Source: Acidobacteriota bacterium
GTDB lineage: Bacteria; Acidobacteriota; Terriglobia; Terriglobales; Acidobacteriaceae
DNA length: 64,000 bases
NCBI GenBank assembly: GCA_021778315.1
Contig: JAJYCQ010000007.1
Location: 3,893 to 67,892 of the forward strand
Direction of reading: 5' to 3'
How positions within the stretch are numbered: position 1 is the first letter of the stretch; the number at the start of each line of letters is the position of its first letter. A program made the translations under genes and the position numbers. Under the pieces are notes generated by a model that ran no database searches, was not told the DNA's origin, and worked only from the letters and a program-made list of their open reading frames with translations. Below, piece by piece: positions 14,101-63,861 of the stretch.

Positions 14101-15024
14101 TCATAACGTAATCATCACCACCGCCGCCAGTGCAGCGATCATCCCTGCCGCCTGCCGTCTGGTAGGCTGCTCCTTCAGATACCACGCCGCCAGCAGAATC
14201 GTCCCTGCCGGATACAAACTCGCGACTACCGATGCCACATCCAACCTGCCCAGTCGCGCCGCCACGAGAAAGAGCATATTTCCCCCGGTATCAAGCAGCG
14301 CCACACCCGCCGCCCACCACAACACCGTCTTCCTGAACCATTGTCCCGGGTGCCCCACATTTTGCGTTTTAGGTGTGGGTTGAGGCTGCGACCGTGACCC
14401 CGCCAGACCCATGACCGCGAGGATCAGCAGGCACAGCGTGATGCTGCTCGCCCTAGCAATCGCCATCGGCATCACGAGTCCCAGCGGACTCGCCATCTTC
14501 AGCGCCACAAAATAAATTCCAAACGCCACGCCCGCAAAGATCGACAGCACCATCGTGCTGCTCGATTCGCCCACGCTCTCCGGCGAATCCCCAGCCGCGA
14601 TCAGCCAGATCGCCCCGCCCGCCAGCACAAACCCCGCCAGACGCATCGCCCCCGGAGCCCCCTCCATCCAACTTGACACCACCGCTGGAATGGCCGCCGC
14701 CAGCAACCCGCTTACCGCCGCCGAAACGCCCATCCCGCCCCTGCTCAGTGCCATATAAAACGCCACCACGCCCAGAGATCCGGTCACACCTCCAACCATC
14801 GCCCAGAGTACGGGTGCCCCATGCGGCAGAACGGCATGTTGCCCCCACAGTGTCGCCAGCAGCAGGCTCAGGCTGATCGCATGAGCCAGGATGACGAACC
14901 GAATCGCTCCGGGCACACGTCCTCCCGCGGCCTTTACCCCCATGCCGCCGGAAAAATCACCGCCGCCCCAGGAGGCGGCGGCAGCGAGCGCAATCAGCGC
15001 GTTCTTGTGGATCTCAAACCCCAT
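14101..15024 (-). CDS. EamA (DMT) family transporter carrying an in-frame palindromic insert
   Basis: A 307-residue inner-membrane protein with about ten hydrophobic segments in two repeated EamA halves (first half around residues 5-140, second about 155-300). Members export or import small metabolites; the substrate is not predictable. It lies four bases after the end of the VWA gene start side (VWA stop at 15028) on the same strand. Between the two halves, residues about 206-227 (SQPQPTPKTQNVGHPGQWF) are encoded by the family C palindrome at 14345-14379. The insert lies in a loop, so the protein is probably still functional. Confidence 0.85.
   Translation of the reverse strand: MGFEIHKNALIALAAAASWGGGDFSGGMGVKAAGGRVPGAIRFVILAHAISLSLLLATLWGQHAVLPHGAPVLWAMVGGVTGSLGVVAFYMALSRGGMGVSAAVSGLLAAAIPAVVSSWMEGAPGAMRLAGFVLAGGAIWLIAAGDSPESVGESSSTMVLSIFAGVAFGIYFVALKMASPLGLVMPMAIARASSITLCLLILAVMGLAGSRSQPQPTPKTQNVGHPGQWFRKTVLWWAAGVALLDTGGNMLFLVAARLGRLDVASVVASLYPAGTILLAAWYLKEQPTRRQAAGMIAALAAVVMITL
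14345..14379. repeat. Family C palindrome inside the EamA transporter gene
   Basis: Starts CCCGGGTGCCCCACA and closes with TGTGGG, so the arms CCCACA/TGTGGG can pair around a 14-base loop. The constant CGGGTGCCCCA arm is shared with the copies at 18356, 20127, 60952 and 62186. Confidence 0.75.
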
Positions 15025-15027
15025 CGC

Positions 15028-16383
15028 CTACGGGGTTGCCGGTGCCGTCACCGGTGCTGCTCTCCGCCGGTTATCGGCAGCCGACGGATAGTAGCCGTCC
15101 TTGCAGGTGATCGTCAGCCCAGGCCTCATCACTCGTACCTCGGTGTGACGATAGGTCTCGTTATAAGGAGACTCATGCGTGTAATATCCCACCGTGTACT
15201 GTGCACGAACCTCGTCGGTTATCCGCGCGAAGCTCTCCTCGATGCCCTTGGGCCGGAACTCAGGATCGGTCTGCCCTCCAGTCTCTGCGGTGTACTTCGG
15301 AAGTACATCGTCGCGCATTGTCAACGGCAGATGGATCCGGTCAAGAAAGCCGAGGCCCGGTATCGCCGCATCGCCCACCAGCGTCGCCCATACGGTCACA
15401 TTGTTGGTCAGCAGATACTTGATGACCTCTTTCTGACTCGCCTTGCTACCGTACTCCTTGCCATCCGAGATCACATACACAATGCGCCGCCGGTCAGGAC
15501 TGGCCTTAGCCGCCTCCTGCGCCGCCATCAAGATCGCATCGTTCAGCGTATGAAACTCGCGAGGAACCGTGAACGACATATTGCCTGCGGAGTGCCCCGG
15601 ATCGATAACGCCGTCGACCGGCTCATTATTGATCACCGAACCGTGTGACAGCGGCCCTGTCATCCCCATCAATGGATCGCGCCCCACGCCCTTCGACCTC
15701 TCCAGCACCGCACCAAGGCGTGCACTCTGCGCCGCCGTGAAGCCTGTCTGCTTGGTCACGCCGTTGTTATACGTGAACACCGACACCTCGTCGTAGGGCG
15801 TAAATGCTCCCTGCAACGCACTCAGCGAGGCATTGATCTTCTCCATCGTGTCGTGCGTCACGCTCTGGTCAATCACCAGGGCTACGGACAACGGAAACGG
15901 ATCCGCAGTAAACAGTCTCAACTGCTGACGTAGACCATTCTCATACACCCGCACATCCCGCCAAGTGATCCCCGGGACCAGGCGGCCCTTCGAGTCCTTC
16001 ACCGTGAACGGAATCTGGTGAAACTGCACATTCACCGACAGCCTGTTCGCCGCACTCGCGGTCGATTCCGGCGGAGGTCCCTGATCTTCCTGCGCTGCCT
16101 GCGGAGTGGGCGCTGGAGCCGCGGGTAGAGCACCACCCGGCGTCACTCCGCCATTCCCGCTTGTCGCTTCATCGGGTGCCACTGGGGCTGACGGCAACGC
16201 TGGAGCCACGGGCCGGATCGACTTCAGATTCGGGAGCGTCTGCGGCACAGGTGCATCTGGTACGTTCTGCTGTGTCGGCTGTGCATTCGTCGCCGGAGTT
16301 CCTTGTCCGTTCGCCGGACTTCCTGCCGCAGCCAGTGCCAGCACCAATCCGCCCACCCACATCATTTGCTTTCCCAACGTCAT
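15028..16383 (-). CDS. Secreted VWA domain protein (acidobacterial VWFA-related type)
   Basis: A 451-residue protein with a signal peptide (MTLGKQMMWVGGLVLALAAA, cleavage near ANG), a Pro/Ala-rich linker and a C-terminal von Willebrand A domain. The MIDAS-like motif reads ALVIDQSVTHDT, a degenerate form of DxSxS. The lead-in FTVKDSKGRLVPGITWRDVRVYENG and the closing YTVGYYTHESPYNETYR match the family known as acidobacterial VWFA-related (TIGR03436). These are exported, of unknown function, and present in many copies in Acidobacteriota. It is divergent from a second member at 16740. Confidence 0.87.
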   Translation of the reverse strand: MTLGKQMMWVGGLVLALAAAGSPANGQGTPATNAQPTQQNVPDAPVPQTLPNLKSIRPVAPALPSAPVAPDEATSGNGGVTPGGALPAAPAPTPQAAQEDQGPPPESTASAANRLSVNVQFHQIPFTVKDSKGRLVPGITWRDVRVYENGLRQQLRLFTADPFPLSVALVIDQSVTHDTMEKINASLSALQGAFTPYDEVSVFTYNNGVTKQTGFTAAQSARLGAVLERSKGVGRDPLMGMTGPLSHGSVINNEPVDGVIDPGHSAGNMSFTVPREFHTLNDAILMAAQEAAKASPDRRRIVYVISDGKEYGSKASQKEVIKYLLTNNVTVWATLVGDAAIPGLGFLDRIHLPLTMRDDVLPKYTAETGGQTDPEFRPKGIEESFARITDEVRAQYTVGYYTHESPYNETYRHTEVRVMRPGLTITCKDGYYPSAADNRRRAAPVTAPATP

Positions 16384-16739
16384 CCCTCATCCTCTTTCGC
16401 GAGCATCAGGCAGCACCACCTCTGGACCTGCAACAAGGAGTCTTTAGCCTTTCGCTAAGCCCAACTCCTTCGCACTCCAGCGGCGGCGCGGCGCGCAACG
16501 CATCCTCTAGAGACTACCAGCGCGGAGCCGCCCCCGCATCACTCTTCGACTTCTTCCATCCCGGAGGTTCCCCTCCTCTCACTCTGACGCGTAACCCACC
16601 CACTTCGTTGCGCCCCATCCTCCGGGAGCTCTCTGCCCGCTTGCCTACGCTCATCCACCCCGTCCTCAGCCTCTCGAGGAAAATAAAGCCACACCCTTGC
16701 TGTCGCCAAAATACCCTGCAATAGCGTCTAATAGTGCAT
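16384..16739. other. Intergenic region between two divergent VWA genes
   Basis: 356 bases without a supportable gene. It is C/T-rich on the plus strand and must hold both divergent promoters, but I see no clear -10/-35 pair, repeat or hairpin. Confidence 0.5.
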
Positions 16740-17807
16740 ATGCGTCTGGTCTCTGTGCGCCGTTTTTCTCCTCTCCCGCTCGCACTCGTGCTCGCCTCCG
16801 CCACGGCTCTCCGCGCTCAGGAGGCCCCGTCCCCCGACGCCCCTCCTCCCCCCAGCAAGGCCGCTCCCCAGCAGGAGCACGTCGGCCACGCCAACGAAAC
16901 CCTCAATCTCAACGTCAACCTCGTCGACGCCTACTTCTCCGTCCGCGACAAGAACGGCTACGTCGCCGGCCTCGGCAAAGAAGATTGCCAAGTCTACGAG
17001 GACAACAAGCTCCAGACCATCAAAAACCTCACCCAGGAGAAAAATCTCCCTCTCACCATCGGTATCCTCCTCGACACCAGCGGCAGCCAGCAGAACGTTC
17101 TCCCCCTCGAGCAGGAGTCCGGAGCGCGCTTCCTCAAAGAGGTCCTCACCCCCAAGGACGAGGCCTTCCTCATCTCCTTCGACGTCAACGTAGACCTGCT
17201 CTCCGACTACACCAACAGTCCCCGCGAGCTCACCCGCGCCATCAACCAGGCTTCCATCAACACCGCCAGCTCCTCCGCCGGAATCCCCGGCATCGGCGGC
17301 GGCCCCATGCCCACTAGCAATCCCCGCGGAACCCTGCTCTACGACGCCGTCTACCTCGCCGCCCACGACAAGCTCAACTCCCAGACCGGCCGCAAAATCA
17401 TCGTCATCCTCACCGACGGCGGCGACCAGGGTTCTCAGGAAACCCTCAAGTCCGCCTCCGAAGCCGCCCAGAAGGCCAACAGCATCGTCTACGTCATCCT
17501 CATCGCCGACCACGCCTTCGGCGGAGCCTTTGGCAGTCCCTTCAACGGCAAAGCCCAGATGGAGCAGCTAGCCCGCGAGACCGGTGGCCGCGTCATCGAC
17601 GTAGGCAACAACGGCCGCCGCCTCGAAGACGCCTTCGACCAGATCCAGGACGAACTCCGCACCCAATACCTCCTCAGCTACACCCCCGCCAACACCACCG
17701 CCGACGGCAAATACCGCAAGCTCGAAATCGACTGCGGCAAGGGCAACACCGTTCAGGCCCGCAAAGGCTACTACGCCATCACCGGCGACGCCGACCCCGA
17801 CAACTAG
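16740..17807 (+). CDS. Secreted VWA domain protein (acidobacterial VWFA-related type)
   Basis: A 355-residue exported protein. The signal peptide is MRLVSVRRFSPLPLALVLAS with cleavage near LRAQ. The domain begins VDAYFSVRDKNGYVAGLGKE, a lead-in shared with the neighbouring VWA gene. The MIDAS motif is DTSGSQQN (DxSxS), complete here, unlike the neighbour. ILTDGGDQGS and the closing YLLSYTPANTTADGKYRKLE, KGYYAI are family features. A GTG at 16734 could add two residues; the ATG at 16740 is preferred. The two divergent paralogues probably arose by duplication. Role unknown; metal-dependent protein binding outside the inner membrane is inferred from the fold. Confidence 0.88.
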   Translation: MRLVSVRRFSPLPLALVLASATALRAQEAPSPDAPPPPSKAAPQQEHVGHANETLNLNVNLVDAYFSVRDKNGYVAGLGKEDCQVYEDNKLQTIKNLTQEKNLPLTIGILLDTSGSQQNVLPLEQESGARFLKEVLTPKDEAFLISFDVNVDLLSDYTNSPRELTRAINQASINTASSSAGIPGIGGGPMPTSNPRGTLLYDAVYLAAHDKLNSQTGRKIIVILTDGGDQGSQETLKSASEAAQKANSIVYVILIADHAFGGAFGSPFNGKAQMEQLARETGGRVIDVGNNGRRLEDAFDQIQDELRTQYLLSYTPANTTADGKYRKLEIDCGKGNTVQARKGYYAITGDADPDN

Positions 17808-17829
17808 CCGCTACGCCCCCCATCAGCGC

Positions 17830-17950
17830 ATCTGCATTGCCGTTGCCTTTGCTCTCTCCCACACCCAACCAAACTCTCGTCATCCTAGAGCGAAGCGAAG
17901 GACCACTGTATTGGCTGTTGCTGTTGCTTTTGCCGTTGCCCTTAGCTCTC
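17830..17950. repeat. Family B REP-like element plus GCAA-type tract (inverted)
   Basis: CGTCATCCTAGAGCGAAGCG then AAGGACCACTGTATTGGC, followed by CTGTTGCTTTTGCCGTTGCC-type sequence. It is the reverse complement of the family B units at 35.8, 40.6 and 53.7 kb and fills the gap between a VWA gene and hisA. Confidence 0.75.
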
Positions 17951-17958
17951 GTCCCCTC

Positions 17959-18726
17959 CTAAGCCTCCATCGCCCCTGAATACACCGCCATCCCCGCCAC
18001 GGCATCCACTCCCATCGCATCCAGCGCCTCCACCTCGCTCATCGCCTTGATCCCTCCCGCCACAATCAATTGCCGCGCCGTAGTCGACCTAAGAATGGCA
18101 GCCACATCCAGAGGAAACCCCTGCATCGTCCCCTCCGTATCGACATGCGTATACAGAAACGCCGAGCAGCAATCCTCCAGCCACGTCACCGCCTCCTCCG
18201 GCCCCAGCTCCACCTGCTCCTTCCACCCCCGCACCGCCACCTTCCCCCCCTTCGTGTCCACCGAGAAGCACAGCGCCTCCTCCCCCAGCGCCTTCTTCAA
18301 CCCCTCCGCAAACTCCAGCCGAATCACCTTATGCCGCCGCTTCTTTGCCACCAATCCGGGTGCCCCATGTCTCGATTCTGAGACGTGGGTTTCCACCGAG
18401 TTCTCCATCGAGTCCTCCACCTCCGGCCCAAACAAGCTCGACCCATAGATCACCCTCTTCGCCCCGGCCTCCAGCAGCCTCCGCCCGTCCTCGGCGGTCC
18501 GCAGACCACCTCCCACCTGGCATGGCAGCCGCTTGCAGATCATCTCGATCAGCTCCCGGTTGTCGCCCTGCCGCATCGCCGCATCCAGGTCGATCAACTG
18601 CACCAGCGGATACTTCGAGAACCGCTCAATCCAATAATCGAAGTCATCAAACGAGAGCTTCAGCTTCTCTCCCTGCACCAACTGCACAATCCGCCCACCC
18701 ATCAAATCAATCGAAGGAATCAACAT
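17959..18726 (-). CDS. hisA: HisA, phosphoribosylformimino-AICAR-phosphate isomerase, with in-frame palindromic insert
   Basis: A 255-residue TIM barrel for step four of histidine synthesis, the Amadori isomerisation of ProFAR to PRFAR. Catalytic Asp D7 (IPSIDLMGG) and D157 (FSVDTKGG) are both present, as are the phosphate-binding VGGGLRT and VAGGIK loops. Residues 112-126 (ETHVSESRHGAPGLV) are encoded by the family C palindrome at 18356-18390, inside a loop between the GSSLF strand and the RLEFAEGLKKALG helix. Relatives carry a short loop there. All catalytic elements flank it intact, so activity is expected. It is separated from hisF by a 1.9 kb island of small genes. Confidence 0.93.
   Translation of the reverse strand: MLIPSIDLMGGRIVQLVQGEKLKLSFDDFDYWIERFSKYPLVQLIDLDAAMRQGDNRELIEMICKRLPCQVGGGLRTAEDGRRLLEAGAKRVIYGSSLFGPEVEDSMENSVETHVSESRHGAPGLVAKKRRHKVIRLEFAEGLKKALGEEALCFSVDTKGGKVAVRGWKEQVELGPEEAVTWLEDCCSAFLYTHVDTEGTMQGFPLDVAAILRSTTARQLIVAGGIKAMSEVEALDAMGVDAVAGMAVYSGAMEA
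18356..18390. repeat. Family C palindrome inside hisA
   Basis: CCGGGTG then arms CCCATGTCTC (18364-18373) and GAGACGTGGG (18380-18389), a ten-base stem with one mismatch and loop GATTCT. Confidence 0.85.
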
Positions 18727-20126: not shown

Positions 20127-20168
20127 CCGGGTGCCCCATTCATGACGGTTCCATCGTCATGGGTGGGG
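20127..20168. repeat. Family C palindrome, intergenic copy
   Basis: CCGGGTGCCCCATT, then CATGACG (20141-20147) pairs with CGTCATG (20155-20161) and CCCCA with TGGGG. It is the most complete intergenic copy of the element found in hisA. Confidence 0.85.
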
Positions 20169-59299: not shown

Positions 59300-60646
59300 T
59301 CACACCCCTAGTTCGTGGCGGATGGCGTTGGCTATGGTGGTGGCGTGGTGGTGCATGGCTTCGGCGCTTTCGGCTTCGATCATTACGCGGGCGAGGGGTT
59401 CGGTGCCGGAGTAGCGGATGACGACTCGGCCGGTGGTGGCGAGGTCGGCTTCGGCGGCGGCGATGGCGGCGACGATGGCGGGGAAGGTGTTGAGGGGGAG
59501 TTTTTCGCGGACCTTTACGTTGAGGATGATCTGCGGATAGTTGGTGAGGTCGGCGATGAGCTGGCTGAGGGTTTTGCCGCTGCGGTGGACTACGTCGAGG
59601 ACAAGGAGCGCGGTGAGGAGGCCGTCGCCGGTGGTGGCGCGGGCGGGGAAGAGGATGTGGCCGGACTGTTCGCCGCCCAAAGATGCTCCCGAACTGCGCA
59701 TCTCTTCGAGGACGTATTTGTCGCCGACGGGGGCGCGGAGCATGCGGATTCCGGAGCGGGCGAAGGCGGCTTCGAGGCCCATGTTGGACATGGTGGTGGC
59801 GACGACGAGGTTATGGGCGAGCTCTCCGCGGGCCTGGAGGTCGCGGGCGCAGAGGAGGAGGACGGCGTCGCCGTTGAGGACGTTGCCGTGCTCGTCGGCG
59901 AACATGGCCCGGTCGGCGTCGCCGTCGAAGGTGAAGCCGATGGAGGCACCGGCGACTTTGACCTGGGCGGCGACGATTTCGGGGTGGAGGGCACCGCAGT
60001 GCTCGTTGATGTTGCGGCCGTCGGGTGAGGCGTGGGTGACCTGGACGGTGCCGTGGAGGGAGTCGAATAGCTGGGGGGCGACGGAGGTGGCGGCACCGTT
60101 GGCGCAGTCGATGACGACGCTGCGGTTGTCGAGGGAGATGCCGGGGACGGCGTCGAGGAGGAAACGGATGTAGTCGAGGCGGTAGGACTCGTTGACTTCG
60201 GGGAGGGGTGGATCGGAGGGGACGGTGGGGTTGGTGGCTAGGACGCGCGTGATCTCTTGCTCTATGGCGAGCTCGGTGTTGTCGGGGAGTTTGTAGCCGT
60301 CGTGGCCGAAGATTTTGATGCCGTTGTCTTGCCAGGGATTGTGGCTGGCGGAGATGACGACTCCGGCGGAGAAGCCGTGCTTGCGGGCGAGGAAGGCGAT
60401 GGCGGGGGTGGTGATGATGCCGGCGGAGGCGACCTCGGCACCGGCGGCGCGAAGGCCGGCGGCGAGCGTCGATGCAATCCAGGGGCCGGACTCGCGGGTG
60501 TCCATGCCCATGATGACGCGGACGGGGTGGTGGGCTTCGGCGAGCTTGGTGGCGAGGGCGACGCCGATGGCGTAGATGGTGGGCTTGTCGAGGGGGGCTT
60601 CGCCGGCGATGGCTCGAATTCCGTCTGTGCCGAATAACTTCCGCAT
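59300..60646 (-). CDS. glmM: Phosphoglucosamine mutase
   Basis: A 448-residue enzyme converting glucosamine-6-phosphate to glucosamine-1-phosphate for peptidoglycan and LPS. Four family motifs: MRKLFGTDGIRAIAG, the phospho-Ser S101 in SASHNPWQDNGIKIFG, metal-binding DGDADRAMF and substrate RYSGTEPLARVMIE. The glm type is indicated by the GTDGIRG-like start and length. The gene is convergent with the DUF5677 gene, eight bases apart. Strongly G-biased plus strand although coded on minus. Confidence 0.96.
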   Translation of the reverse strand: MRKLFGTDGIRAIAGEAPLDKPTIYAIGVALATKLAEAHHPVRVIMGMDTRESGPWIASTLAAGLRAAGAEVASAGIITTPAIAFLARKHGFSAGVVISASHNPWQDNGIKIFGHDGYKLPDNTELAIEQEITRVLATNPTVPSDPPLPEVNESYRLDYIRFLLDAVPGISLDNRSVVIDCANGAATSVAPQLFDSLHGTVQVTHASPDGRNINEHCGALHPEIVAAQVKVAGASIGFTFDGDADRAMFADEHGNVLNGDAVLLLCARDLQARGELAHNLVVATTMSNMGLEAAFARSGIRMLRAPVGDKYVLEEMRSSGASLGGEQSGHILFPARATTGDGLLTALLVLDVVHRSGKTLSQLIADLTNYPQIILNVKVREKLPLNTFPAIVAAIAAAEADLATTGRVVIRYSGTEPLARVMIEAESAEAMHHHATTIANAIRHELGV

Positions 60647-61083
60647 GGTGATCCTTTGGGCTTAGATGTCCAACTAACGATGGTAGTGGATGAGGGCGGT
60701 AAGGGATAGTCCGGGGGGCCTGCGCGGACGGCGGAGGGCTTTGCGTGGCGAAGGGGAGAGCGTGGGTCGCAGGGAGGAAGGCAAGTTGGTCGTTGCGCCT
60801 GCGGCTTCACTCCGGCCTTCGGCAGAGCGGAAGGGCCTGCGGCCTGATTGTTTACCTAGGGCTTCGCCCTAGGCTGGTATGGGGCGGGCCTCCGGCCCTT
60901 GGAGGGGTGGTGGGTTTGGGGAGAATGGGGTTGGGGTGGGTGGTATTCGCGGCCCATGCTTGACGGTGAGGCTGGCATGAATGGGGCACCCGGCTAAAAT
61001 TGCTGGTTTGGTAGAACTAATTGATGATAAGGCGAACAAAATGCGTATCATACATATAGCATTCAGGATGAAGTCCGGCGAAC
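60647..61083. other. Non-coding region with stacked short hairpins and repeats
   Basis: 437 bases without a supportable gene. It holds a family D word (60718-60735), hairpin CCTAGGGC-TTC-GCCCTAGG (60855-60873), hairpin GGGCC-TCC-GGCCC (60886-60898), related GGGCCTGCGGCCT text (60834-60846) and a family C palindrome (60952-60993). The G-rich plus strand is extreme here. Confidence 0.75.
60952..60993. repeat. Family C palindrome before the low-GC gene pair
   Basis: GCCCATGC (60952-60959) pairs with GCATGAATGGGGC (60975-60987), ending CACCCGG, the inverse of the hisA/EamA orientation. Confidence 0.78.
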
Positions 61084-61416
61084 ATGCGAATGTTTGTTGA
61101 AGCATTTGTGCTAGTAGTATTAGCTGCAGTATTCACAGGCCTCGTCGTCACTCCGGGGAAACTGGATTGGTCTCAACGGATATCGCTAGGCGTTGCATTG
61201 ATTGCGAGCGCTTTCTTTGCTGCGCATACCGTGAGCAAGATGAAGGCAGAGTCCAAACCGACCATTGTGGTTGAGCCCGTCGCGGTACCCCAAGGGCCCA
61301 CAAAGAGAACTGGCGATGCCGAAGGTGGAGAGAATCAAAGCCCAGGAAACACTGGTGATGACAATACCTTCGACTACAACAACAGCTCGCAACCGAAGAA
61401 CAGGATGCCCAAATGA
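61084..61416 (+). CDS. Small two-span membrane protein with polar tail
   Basis: A 110-residue protein, MRMFVEAFVLVVLAAVFTG, then RISLGVALIASAFFAAHTV, both membrane segments, followed by a polar Gly/Asn/Pro-rich tail (GGENQSPGNTGDDNTFDYNN). Its last codons overlap the next gene start (ATGA), so the two are translationally coupled. AT-richer than neighbours. No family recognised. May be a signalling or anchoring partner for the secreted protein that follows. Confidence 0.65.
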   Translation: MRMFVEAFVLVVLAAVFTGLVVTPGKLDWSQRISLGVALIASAFFAAHTVSKMKAESKPTIVVEPVAVPQGPTKRTGDAEGGENQSPGNTGDDNTFDYNNSSQPKNRMPK

Positions 61417-62045
61417 AGTGCCCCTTCCTGATATTGCTGATTATCTGTTTTGTAGGGACCGCATTCGGTCAATCAACTAAAACGGGGGATGCGAAGTCAC
61501 AGGGTCAATGCACCGCTGCCAACACCGGCAGCAACAATCGCTTTGTAATCAATTGCGGCATAGGCAAGAAACAGGGAGCTGAGATGCTCGCTATTCTGAA
61601 TAAGGTCCTGGCAAATCAGATTGATCCTAATGCAGTGATGACAAAGCTTGATGAAATCTTGAATCGCACTAACCCTAACCTTACGGTGGTTGCTTACGAT
61701 TGCCAAGGAACTATGCGGTCGACCAACCTGTCAACTGGTGTTATGCAGTATGGTCGCAATTATCCATTCGCAAATATCAAGCCAATGGATGATCTTTTGG
61801 TTCGAAGGCTTTACCCAGATTTATTGACTTCCTGCCTCGCACAAATCAGTCAGAAGCCGGAATGGTTGACACCTCGATTACTTTGTGGCGAAGCCTACAG
61901 CGAAATGGGCGATCGTGCAAATGCGCTAACGATGCTGGGTGACTACGAGAAAAATGCCGGGCCTGGCTACAACACCGACCCCTATTGCAGGGCTTTAGAT
62001 TCTGCGTTGCGTCAGAAGCTACAAGTGACCCCACTTAGCAACTAG
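61413..62045 (+). CDS. Secreted hypothetical protein coupled to the membrane gene
   Basis: A 210-residue protein with a signal peptide (MKCPFLILLIICFVGTAFGQ, cleavage after FGQ). The mature part begins with a Cys-containing loop (GQCTAANTGSNNRFVINCGI) and a helical region LAILNKVLANQIDPNAVMTK, LDEILNR, then a C-terminal half with further Cys (VVAYDCQG, LTSCLAQIS, LLCGEAYSEMGD) that resembles a TPR-like helix pair. Several cysteines suggest disulphides outside the cytoplasm. Overlaps the previous gene by four bases. Low G+C. No characterised family. Confidence 0.68.
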   Translation: MKCPFLILLIICFVGTAFGQSTKTGDAKSQGQCTAANTGSNNRFVINCGIGKKQGAEMLAILNKVLANQIDPNAVMTKLDEILNRTNPNLTVVAYDCQGTMRSTNLSTGVMQYGRNYPFANIKPMDDLLVRRLYPDLLTSCLAQISQKPEWLTPRLLCGEAYSEMGDRANALTMLGDYEKNAGPGYNTDPYCRALDSALRQKLQVTPLSN

Positions 62046-62286
62046 CTAGCCATCACGACCAATCCCATGCCCATTCCATATGGCGACTAACAGTGGCGGA
62101 ACAGAGAATCAGGATTCTGGTCCGCAGAGGCTCATCCAATCCATAAAGGACCTACACGAGCGGTTCGCGCGTACCCGCGCGACTACCCACTCATGTTGCA
62201 TGAAGCCGCGCCATGGGTGGGGCACCCGGCGGAAGGTTGATCCTGAGGAGTATTTGGCAAAGGAATGGGAAGGGCGGGTTGCGGGG
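62046..62286. other. Spacer before xseA with a family C palindrome
   Basis: Contains the palindrome at 62186-62229 (CCCACTCATG / CATGGGTGGG, then GCACCCGG). An 83-codon open frame crosses it (62080-62331) without a ribosome site; it may be a remnant, not called. Confidence 0.6.
62186..62229. repeat. Family C palindrome between the low-GC pair and xseA
   Basis: Arms CCCACTCATG (62186-62195) and CATGGGTGGG (62212-62221) with one mismatch, closing with GCACCCGG. Confidence 0.8.
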
Positions 62287-63861
62287 TTATTCGGTGGAGG
62301 TGACTTTGGCGCGGAGGCGGCCGCGGGCTAGTTGGGCGGTGATAGGGGTGCCGGCGGGGGCTTCGGTGGCGTTGCGGAGGAGTTTGGCGTTGGGGCCGGG
62401 GGCGTCTAGGTAGATCAGGGCGTAGCCTCGTTCGAGGACGCGGAGGGGGCTTAGGGCTTCGAGCTGGGAGGTGGCTCGGGTGAGGCGGTTGTGGGCGGTG
62501 AGGAAGGCGTTGGGGCGGGCGGCGTGGAGGCGCTGGGTGAGGGCGTCGAAGCGGCGGTTGGCGGCGGCGATGCGGAGGGAGACGTGCTGGCGGCTGAGGC
62601 GGGCTTCGAGCTGAGAGAGGCGGGTGGAGCGGGCGCGGAGGAGGCGGTTGAGGGAGGATTCGGCGCGGAAGGAGAGGTCGTCGAGGTGCTGGGCGCGGCG
62701 GGCGACGTTGGCCTGGGTGCGGTGGAGCACGGCGTCGGCGGTGAGGGAGGAGAGGCGCTGGCGGGTGCGGAGGAGGTTGTAGCGGAGGGAGCGGGAGAGG
62801 CGGGAGTGGAGGCGGTCGAGTCGGTCGGCGATGCCTTGCTGGGCGGCGGTGACGAGCTCGGCGGCGGCGGAGGGGGTGGGGGCGTGGAGGTCGGCGGCGA
62901 AGTCGGCGAGGGTGGAGTCGGGTGCGTGGCCGATGCCGGTGATGACGGGGATGGAGGAGGCGGCGATGGCGCGGGCGACGACTTCGGCGTCGAAGCCGTG
63001 GAGGTCTTCCCAGGAGCCACCGCCGCGGGCGACGAGGATGACGTCGACGAGAGAGGGGTGGGAGGAGAACCAGCGGACTCCGGCAGCTACTTCGGAGGGG
63101 CAGTTGGGGCCCTGGACGGCGGCGGGATAGATGAGGAGGTTGACGGCGGCGTGGCGGCGGCGACAGACCTTGATGATGTCGCGGAGGGCGGCTCCGTGGA
63201 GGCTGGTGACGATGCCGATGCAGCGAGGGAACGCGGGGAGCGGGCGGGCGTTTTCGAAGAGGCCTGCGCGGCGGAGGCGGGCTTTGAGTTCTTGCACCTC
63301 TGCAAGTAGTGCACCGAGGCCGGTTTGTTGCATGGATTCGGCGATGAGCTGGAGCTGGCCGCGGGACTCGTAGACGGAGAGCTGGCCGGAGATGCGGACG
63401 GCGTCGCCGTCTTTGGGACGGAAGCGGAGGAGGGAGGCCTGGCGGCGGAAGAGGACGATGGAGAGCTGGGCTTCGCCGTCTTTGAGCGTGAAGTAGCAGT
63501 GGCCGCTGGAGGCGGGACGCCAGTTGGAGATTTCGCCTTCGACGGTAACGTGGTTGTGGGTTCGCTCGACGAGGTTGCGGATGTGGCGGACGAGCTGGGC
63601 GACGGTGAACACGGCCTGCGCGGAGTCCTGCGCGGACGGCGAGCGGTCCTTCGCGGACGGCGCGAGTTTGGGTGGTGGTGCATCGGAGGAGGGGGTGCGG
63701 AGGGCTCGGGATTGTTCGGCGAGGATGTCGGCGGTGGTGACCTCGGGCTCGGGGGCCTGGTCGAAGAGTGAGGGGGCAGAGGCCGGGGCGGACTGGCGCG
63801 AGGGGGCCCGTTTGGAGCGGGAGCGGCGGAGGTCGGCGAGGGTGGGGATGTCGTCGGGCAT
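62287..63861 (-). CDS. xseA: Exodeoxyribonuclease VII large subunit with repeat-coded N-terminal linker
   Basis: A 524-residue large subunit of the single-strand DNA exonuclease. The OB fold begins near residue 85 (VAQLVRHIRNLVERTHNHVT, VEGEISNWRPASSGHCYFTL), followed by the catalytic domain (CIGIVTSLHGAALRDIIKVC, ILVARGGGSWEDLHGF, VITGIGHAPDSTLADFAADL) and the C-terminal coiled coil (residues about 330-460). Residues 1-84 are an unusual low-complexity extension; 67-83 (APSAKDRSPSAQDSAQA) is encoded by family D words. xseB is not adjacent; the gene on the other side is an IS630-like transposase start. Confidence 0.93.
   Translation of the reverse strand: MPDDIPTLADLRRSRSKRAPSRQSAPASAPSLFDQAPEPEVTTADILAEQSRALRTPSSDAPPPKLAPSAKDRSPSAQDSAQAVFTVAQLVRHIRNLVERTHNHVTVEGEISNWRPASSGHCYFTLKDGEAQLSIVLFRRQASLLRFRPKDGDAVRISGQLSVYESRGQLQLIAESMQQTGLGALLAEVQELKARLRRAGLFENARPLPAFPRCIGIVTSLHGAALRDIIKVCRRRHAAVNLLIYPAAVQGPNCPSEVAAGVRWFSSHPSLVDVILVARGGGSWEDLHGFDAEVVARAIAASSIPVITGIGHAPDSTLADFAADLHAPTPSAAAELVTAAQQGIADRLDRLHSRLSRSLRYNLLRTRQRLSSLTADAVLHRTQANVARRAQHLDDLSFRAESSLNRLLRARSTRLSQLEARLSRQHVSLRIAAANRRFDALTQRLHAARPNAFLTAHNRLTRATSQLEALSPLRVLERGYALIYLDAPGPNAKLLRNATEAPAGTPITAQLARGRLRAKVTSTE
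63613..63663. repeat. Family D words inside xseA
   Basis: CCTGCGCGGAG, TCCTGCGCGGACGGCGAG and TCCTTCGCGGACGGCGCG, three units in frame on the minus strand. Confidence 0.85.

Follow-up and report, generated by a model that had tools for sequence, protein, structure and literature searches.

A 64,000-nucleotide stretch of contig JAJYCQ010000007.1 from an Acidobacteriota bacterium (the window, meaning the whole stretch analyzed) carries a short palindromic element in frame within two unrelated genes, hisA and a gene for an EamA-family transporter. The elements are repetitive extragenic palindromic (REP) elements of a Granulicella-like soil acidobacterium. We consider it highly likely that such REPs, very probably spread by REP-associated tyrosine transposases (RAYTs), insert widely and that in-frame copies survive in permissive, disordered protein loops, even those of essential enzymes. 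Comparison with relatives reveals a genome-wide family of repeats whose stems covary, RAYT genes with copies of matching subtype on either side, and sites that are empty in some relatives. It also reveals in-frame occupation of hisA, eamA, tsaD, ligA, and other genes, different subtypes at hisA between near-identical flanks, and nesting of one copy within another.

The palindromic element in the window

The initial annotation described one element at two sites, with a constant arm joined to a variable self-complementary stem, and both parts of this description hold. The constant part is the tag CCGGGTGCCCCA, adjoined by a variable hairpin. The palindromes at positions 14345 to 14379 (CCCGGGTGCCCCACATTTTGCGTTTTAGGTGTGGG) and 18356 to 18389 (CCGGGTGCCCCATGTCTCGATTCTGAGACGTGGG) each form a single hairpin when folded alone (-11.2 and -17.9 kcal/mol, respectively, with RNA parameters). 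Both lie in frame within minus-strand open frames, those of eamA and hisA, and the eamA element is read in a different frame (GHP) from the hisA element. With at most one mismatch, the tag occurs eight times in the window against 0.66 expected, a count that none of 100 shuffles reached. Five of the eight matches are exact; beyond the eamA and hisA copies, these start at 20127, 60993, and 62229. The genes and copies concerned are the following.

14101 to 15024, minus strand: EamA-family transporter gene with a copy in its central loop (open frame; homologs match Pfam PF00892)
14345 to 14379, plus strand: REP copy of an A-like subtype within the eamA reading frame, minus-strand peptide PTPKTQNVGHPG (sequence and fold; decayed in relative L012, none in L001)
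17959 to 18726, minus strand: hisA, encoding a HisA/HisF-type barrel, with the insert in the beta4-alpha4 loop (homologs PF00977; model and PDB matches PriA/HisA)
18356 to 18389, plus strand: REP copy of subtype A within the hisA reading frame, minus-strand peptide THVSESRHGAPG (sequence and fold)
20127 to 20167, plus strand: REP copy, subtype B (CATTCATGACG...CGTCATGGGTGGG), with a strong hairpin (sequence and fold)
60951 to 60993, minus strand: exact tag with a decayed hairpin (only -3.0 kcal/mol, for 60957 to 60993), between the open reading frames at 59300 to 60646 and 61413 to 62045
62187 to 62229, minus strand: exact tag with an imperfect hairpin, just past the 3' end of the open reading frame at 62287 to 63861 (sequence and fold)

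A near match at 14810 (ACGGGTGCCCCA) was considered as a further eamA copy and rejected, as it encodes a motif common to EamA homologs (25 rows compared).

The repeat family in related genomes and its link to RAYTs

Genome-wide statements below rest on the genomes of relatives. A genome scan with HisA recovered 61 loci, nearly all from genomes labeled Acidobacteria, Granulicella, Edaphobacter, Terriglobus, or the like. The exact tag occurs 12 to 93 times in each of 16 related genomes, against 0 to 2 times for a reversed-pattern control, and the repeat is also found in the isolates Granulicella rosea, Bryocella elongata, and Terriglobus albidus. The hairpin body that follows the tag comes in many subtypes. 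Among 20 copies of subtype A, both variable outer pairs are complementary in all 20, compared with means of 11.8 and 15.0 when partners are shuffled; that is, the stems covary.

From genome G305 we picked 53 stretches around exact tags, holding 80 tags (the G305 sample). Another tag lies within 100 bp of 23 of these 80, always on the same strand, and 7 of 12 close pairs combine two different subtypes (assigned by eye). REPINs are REP-based elements dispersed by RAYTs and consist of inverted REP pairs. The repeats described here share the REP basis but not the arrangement, inverted neighbors being found at 0 of the 23 close-neighbor tags in the sample. One facing tag pair, about 100 bp apart, was seen at L063. 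The tags divide unevenly between contig strands (11/25 in G003, 38/24 in G306, 38/21 in G307, 55/30 in G308, and 58/35 in G310). A further REP type (peptide like PASEDRSPGTP, stem GCGAGC...GCTCGC) was seen nested within other REPs at L215/L252 (tsaD, G305), in the HisA proteins P0088 and P0106, and at L009, and thus recurs across different genes and species.

The RAYT domain PF01797 was found in 7 of the 8 genomes of one set and in all 8 of another. At nine loci (L070, L076, L084, L172, L176, L179, L184, L193, and L195) a RAYT gene has elements on both sides, and most of these loci carry one subtype apiece. The elements at L070 and L176 are of subtype A, the stem type of the window's hisA copy; L179 has subtype B on both sides and one D. 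All eight RAYT proteins tested pass the NCBIfam cutoff of NF047646 (REP-associated tyrosine transposase), and most RAYT frames contain EHVHLL-like and YIHRNP-like motifs, which we take to be the HUH motif and the tyrosine motif of RAYTs. The REPs are very probably spread by RAYTs encoded in related genomes.

Occupancy of the hisA loop

HisA of the window has 255 residues, compared with 236 in L001, so that the insert (57 bp) is wider than the palindrome; the element accounts for about 36 bp and a small local GTGGAGGACTCG-like repeat for the remainder. The linker adjoining the REP (18391 to 18421) comprises three imperfectly repeated units, which on the minus strand read GTGGAGGACTCG / ATGGAGAACTCG / GTGGAA. 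Across 44 aligned relatives, big length differences among HisA proteins fall in the loop after GSSLFG. As the initial annotation had noted for the catalytic aspartates, the residues concerned are intact: D6 and D156, presumably these aspartates, are invariant in a 60-row alignment. The structure model of HisA has a mean predicted local distance difference test score (pLDDT) of 88.9, with PriA and HisA as its best solved-structure matches. Its sole segment under a pLDDT of 50, residues 103 to 126, is the insert and sits between a strand (90 to 93) and a helix (136 to 146). In such barrels, the beta-alpha loops lie on the catalytic face.

An insert present only in the window's genome had been proposed as a check, and this we reject: REPs occupy this loop in many relatives, and their subtype is often a different one. 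At the DNA level, palindromes are found in the hisA loop of the window and of six relatives, namely subtype B in L040, a decayed A in L052, D-like elements in L011 and L009, and subtype D in L147 and L146. The remaining loops of a set of 99 distinct ones showed no palindrome by eye. In L009 a second REP is nested within the first, and L011 shows the unnested state. Among the 120 best HisA homologs, a set that includes the window's own protein and is enriched in insert carriers because the query carries the insert, 97 have a REP-encoded peptide in this loop and 23 do not. Subtypes A, B, C, and D account for 50, 21, 7, and 19 of the 97, with the labels of metagenome proteins read from peptides. 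A single reading frame is used in all 97, giving GAP or variants of it (GVP, GPP, RAP, or GAW, for example), and two proteins (P0052 and P0103) each hold two REPs in tandem. The homolog P0018 (310 residues) has a REP peptide followed by a tandem array of SVAGTTPR-like units spanning about 60 residues. Many Granulicella and Edaphobacter HisA proteins have a loop extension of 9 to 10 residues, possibly the remnant of an old REP, in which no palindrome was seen.

Apparent exchange of subtypes at one loop

The hisA genes of the window and L040 are identical at 307 of 312 nucleotides to the left of the loop and at 129 of 134 to the right (98% and 96%), yet the former holds subtype A and the latter subtype B. 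Likewise, P0002 and P0003 (subtype A) and P0006 (subtype B) have identical HisA sequences outside the loop. Linkers following the tag are shared across subtypes in two pairs of proteins: GLVAKKRRHK is common to P0001 (the window's protein, A) and P0004 (B), and GAVAKKRRHQ is common to P0003 and P0006. On a tree of HisA without the loop, the subtype labels require at least 47 changes, compared with a mean of 62.2 (55 to 69) in 200 shuffles. The labels need fewer changes than shuffled ones and still need 47, indicating that they partly follow descent and change often. Since the same hisA loop holds different REPs in relatives, a functional enzyme seems to have mobile DNA exchanged within one of its loops.

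In-frame copies in eamA and other conserved genes

A related REP peptide is present in 43 of 120 EamA homologs (41 by pattern, with one false match removed and three missed ones added by eye). EamA of L012, 94% identical to that of the window, carries a decayed copy in the corresponding position, and EamA of L001 (73% identical) has none. HisA is only 78% identical to its L012 counterpart, though the two genes are neighbors in the window; this unequal kinship hints at recombination between relatives. Five EamA homologs (P0127, P0139, P0147, P0156, and P0186) have a second insert (DPSTGSGQA or similar) inside the REP peptide, and another short repeat therefore seems to be nested in the REP.

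An open frame runs across 63 of 86 copies (the 80 of the G305 sample and six of the window), a count that proves nothing alone. Codon-usage scoring proved too weak, missing both in-frame copies of the window at its thresholds, and we therefore relied on family matches and relatives instead. Twenty of the frames across copies were searched against NCBIfam, and 12 copies are spanned by a family match: one each in ilvB, hisS, a MoeB/ThiF protein, a FadD11-like ligase, mutM, rsmE, asnS (via a related synthetase model), and mnmG, and two each in a solute-binding protein (overlapping tags) and a TIGR03623 repair protein. Four of the 20 frames had no NCBIfam family match. Alignments of relatives add two in-frame copies in tsaD and two in ligA, bringing the load to at least 16 of the 80 sampled tags in frame in conserved genes. 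Likely further hosts are dnaX, an ArnT-like protein, and dpp5.

The essential gene tsaD shows the same pattern as hisA. At its site 1, G305 carries subtype A with a second REP nested in it and G306 carries subtype B; G307 has another palindrome, G309 one in reversed orientation, and G337 yet another (stems assigned by eye). This site is empty in 8 of 14 genomes and was unreadable in G308. Among these close relatives, ligA site 1 carries an element in G305 and G307 but not in G306. In-frame palindromes lacking this tag were also seen, at L254 (tsaD, G307; EILSFAQNDE) and L272 (ligA, G305; SDPERSEGEES). At L264/L266 (tsaD region, G308) the reading frame is apparently interrupted, with one TAG and one TAA within the match.

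Proposed origin and turnover of the REP-encoded loops

The initial annotation read the element as a palindrome, mobile or copied, that protein loops tolerate. This reading is favored by the genome-wide tag in all 16 relatives, the elements flanking RAYT genes, the empty sites, and the coincidence of the insert with the low-confidence stretch of HisA. RAYTs of the host group would mobilize short nonautonomous palindromes with a constant 5' tag. These REPs would land widely, and copies that fall in frame in permissive, disordered loops would persist. The host protein most likely merely tolerates the REP peptide, which would be neutral. For turnover of the loop, a new REP may insert at or beside a resident one, after which one copy, the older, would be lost, with the tag end as the fixed junction.

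Several observations weigh against this account. The RAYT of L084 lacks the first histidine of the HUH motif, and a stop lies within the L176 RAYT frame. Only 5 of the 30 RAYT loci fetched from one genome set and 12 of the 30 from the other have elements, some of the 12 being distant from the gene. No PF01797 match was found in G007, which has 17 exact tags, and five RAYT proteins used as queries found no RAYT in the 64-kb window. Of about 100 distinct loops of hisA in the genomes fetched, those with a REP seen by eye come from only six relatives. The HisA tree is weakly resolved, with only 6 of 115 inner branches well supported, and the subtypes of metagenome HisA proteins come from peptides, not DNA, with four labels corrected by eye.

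How one loop comes to hold different subtypes is a separate question. REP-encoded loops may be exchangeable cassettes, in which another subtype lands at the tag of the resident REP and the earlier occupant is lost. We advance this tentatively, as plausible but somewhat short of probable. It fits the shared tag-side linkers with different stems, the tandem and nested states, the same-strand neighbors of two subtypes, and the fixed hisA frame. The same loops of essential enzymes (HisA and TsaD) might then be replaced, in frame, more quickly than the remainder of the protein evolves, a corollary that we hold just as tentatively.

A serious rival, though on balance less likely than not, is that each time a fresh REP lands independently in a tolerant loop that is empty, any earlier copy having been lost, and that no resident REP serves as a target. 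Empty sites are indeed common (the 23 HisA proteins and eight tsaD genes noted above), and the reversed copy at tsaD site 1 in G309 and the filled and empty states of ligA site 1 also speak for independent events. Such events account less readily for the GAP-or-variant frame in 97 of 97 hisA loops although eamA copies use another frame, for the two protein pairs that share a post-tag linker under different subtypes, or for tandem and nested REPs and same-strand neighbors.

It is very unlikely that hisA received a single ancient insertion whose stem then diverged by complementary point mutations, the subtypes being its descendants without exchange. All 97 REP-bearing HisA proteins of the 120 share orientation and frame, the labels track the tree beyond shuffled labels, and peptide variation within subtype A suits compensatory stem changes. 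Against such descent, A and B lie between nearly identical DNA flanks and in proteins identical outside the loop, and tandem and nested states occur. Further, the B element of L040 is the genome-wide subtype seen at 20127 in the window and at the RAYT locus L179, not a mutated A, and the window and L040 come near to being strains of a single species with A and B at hisA.

Persistence of the insert in 97 of 120 proteins could also mean that it is kept as a useful loop peptide, for example one that tunes HisA or its interactions. We think this most improbable, as its sequence, length, and presence vary freely, the modeled segment lacks order, and the same peptides occur in unrelated proteins. 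Chance is rejected by the shuffles and reversed-tag controls, and although metagenome assemblies supply much of the comparison, the repeat's presence in isolates and a subtype D HisA (P0077) on a 4.46-Mb contig leave an assembly artifact practically negligible.

Relation to known repeats and significance

REPs inside genes and their link to RAYTs are already published (Di Nocera et al. 2013, PMC3733652). Section 15 of that paper reports different REPs at about one recB site in two Xanthomonas species and lists a DNA ligase and tRNA synthetases among intragenic REP targets. RAYT classes and GT[AG]G guides have been described (excerpt of PMC6006769), and Granulicella aggregans appears in a table of genomes with many REP candidates from the RepRanger survey (excerpt of PMC12306157). 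In the excerpted text of that survey, REPs seldom overlap genes and the words "intragenic" and "in-frame" do not occur, in contrast to the in-frame copies found here.

The GTAG REP superfamily, as the excerpts of PMC3733652 present it, resembles the present family in its short palindrome, constant end tag, high copy number, repeat-flanked RAYT genes, and some copies in frame in core genes. It differs in that the constant end here is CGGGTGCCCCA (tag CCGGGTGCCCCA), with no GTAG or GT[AG]G, and in the host, here Acidobacteriota. In the same text, neighbors of opposite orientation occur in many REP families, whereas close neighbors in the G305 sample without exception share a strand. The present case is further set apart from the GTAG REPs described there by the apparent, recurrent exchange of subtypes at a single loop across many relatives. 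The likeness to Rickettsia palindromic elements drawn in the initial annotation stands insofar as both are palindromes tolerated in frame inside protein genes (here hisA, eamA, and the conserved hosts in G305). It fails as to identity: the present repeat is a RAYT-associated REP with its own tag, whereas the Rickettsia types treated in PMC3733652 have a CGTC tag, and the abstract of that paper describes CGTC repeats as apparently lacking a dedicated transposase.

No report of in-frame REPs in Acidobacteria was among the literature matches listed (titles and abstract openings in the open-access literature). As far as that literature was searched, the new features are the tag, the load of in-frame copies on core genes of these bacteria, and the recurrent exchange of subtypes at a single loop.

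For annotation, the repeat accounts for odd GAPG and GHPG inserts in acidobacterial proteins. Nature already supplies versions of HisA and TsaD whose main difference is the element in the loop, and these could be compared. How protein loops gain new sequence has been an open question since the Rickettsia elements were described. The family bears on this question, on how RAYTs choose their targets, and on how short elements persist without destroying genes, as mobile DNA placed in frame in working enzymes and then exchanged can be followed in a record that is natural and densely sampled.

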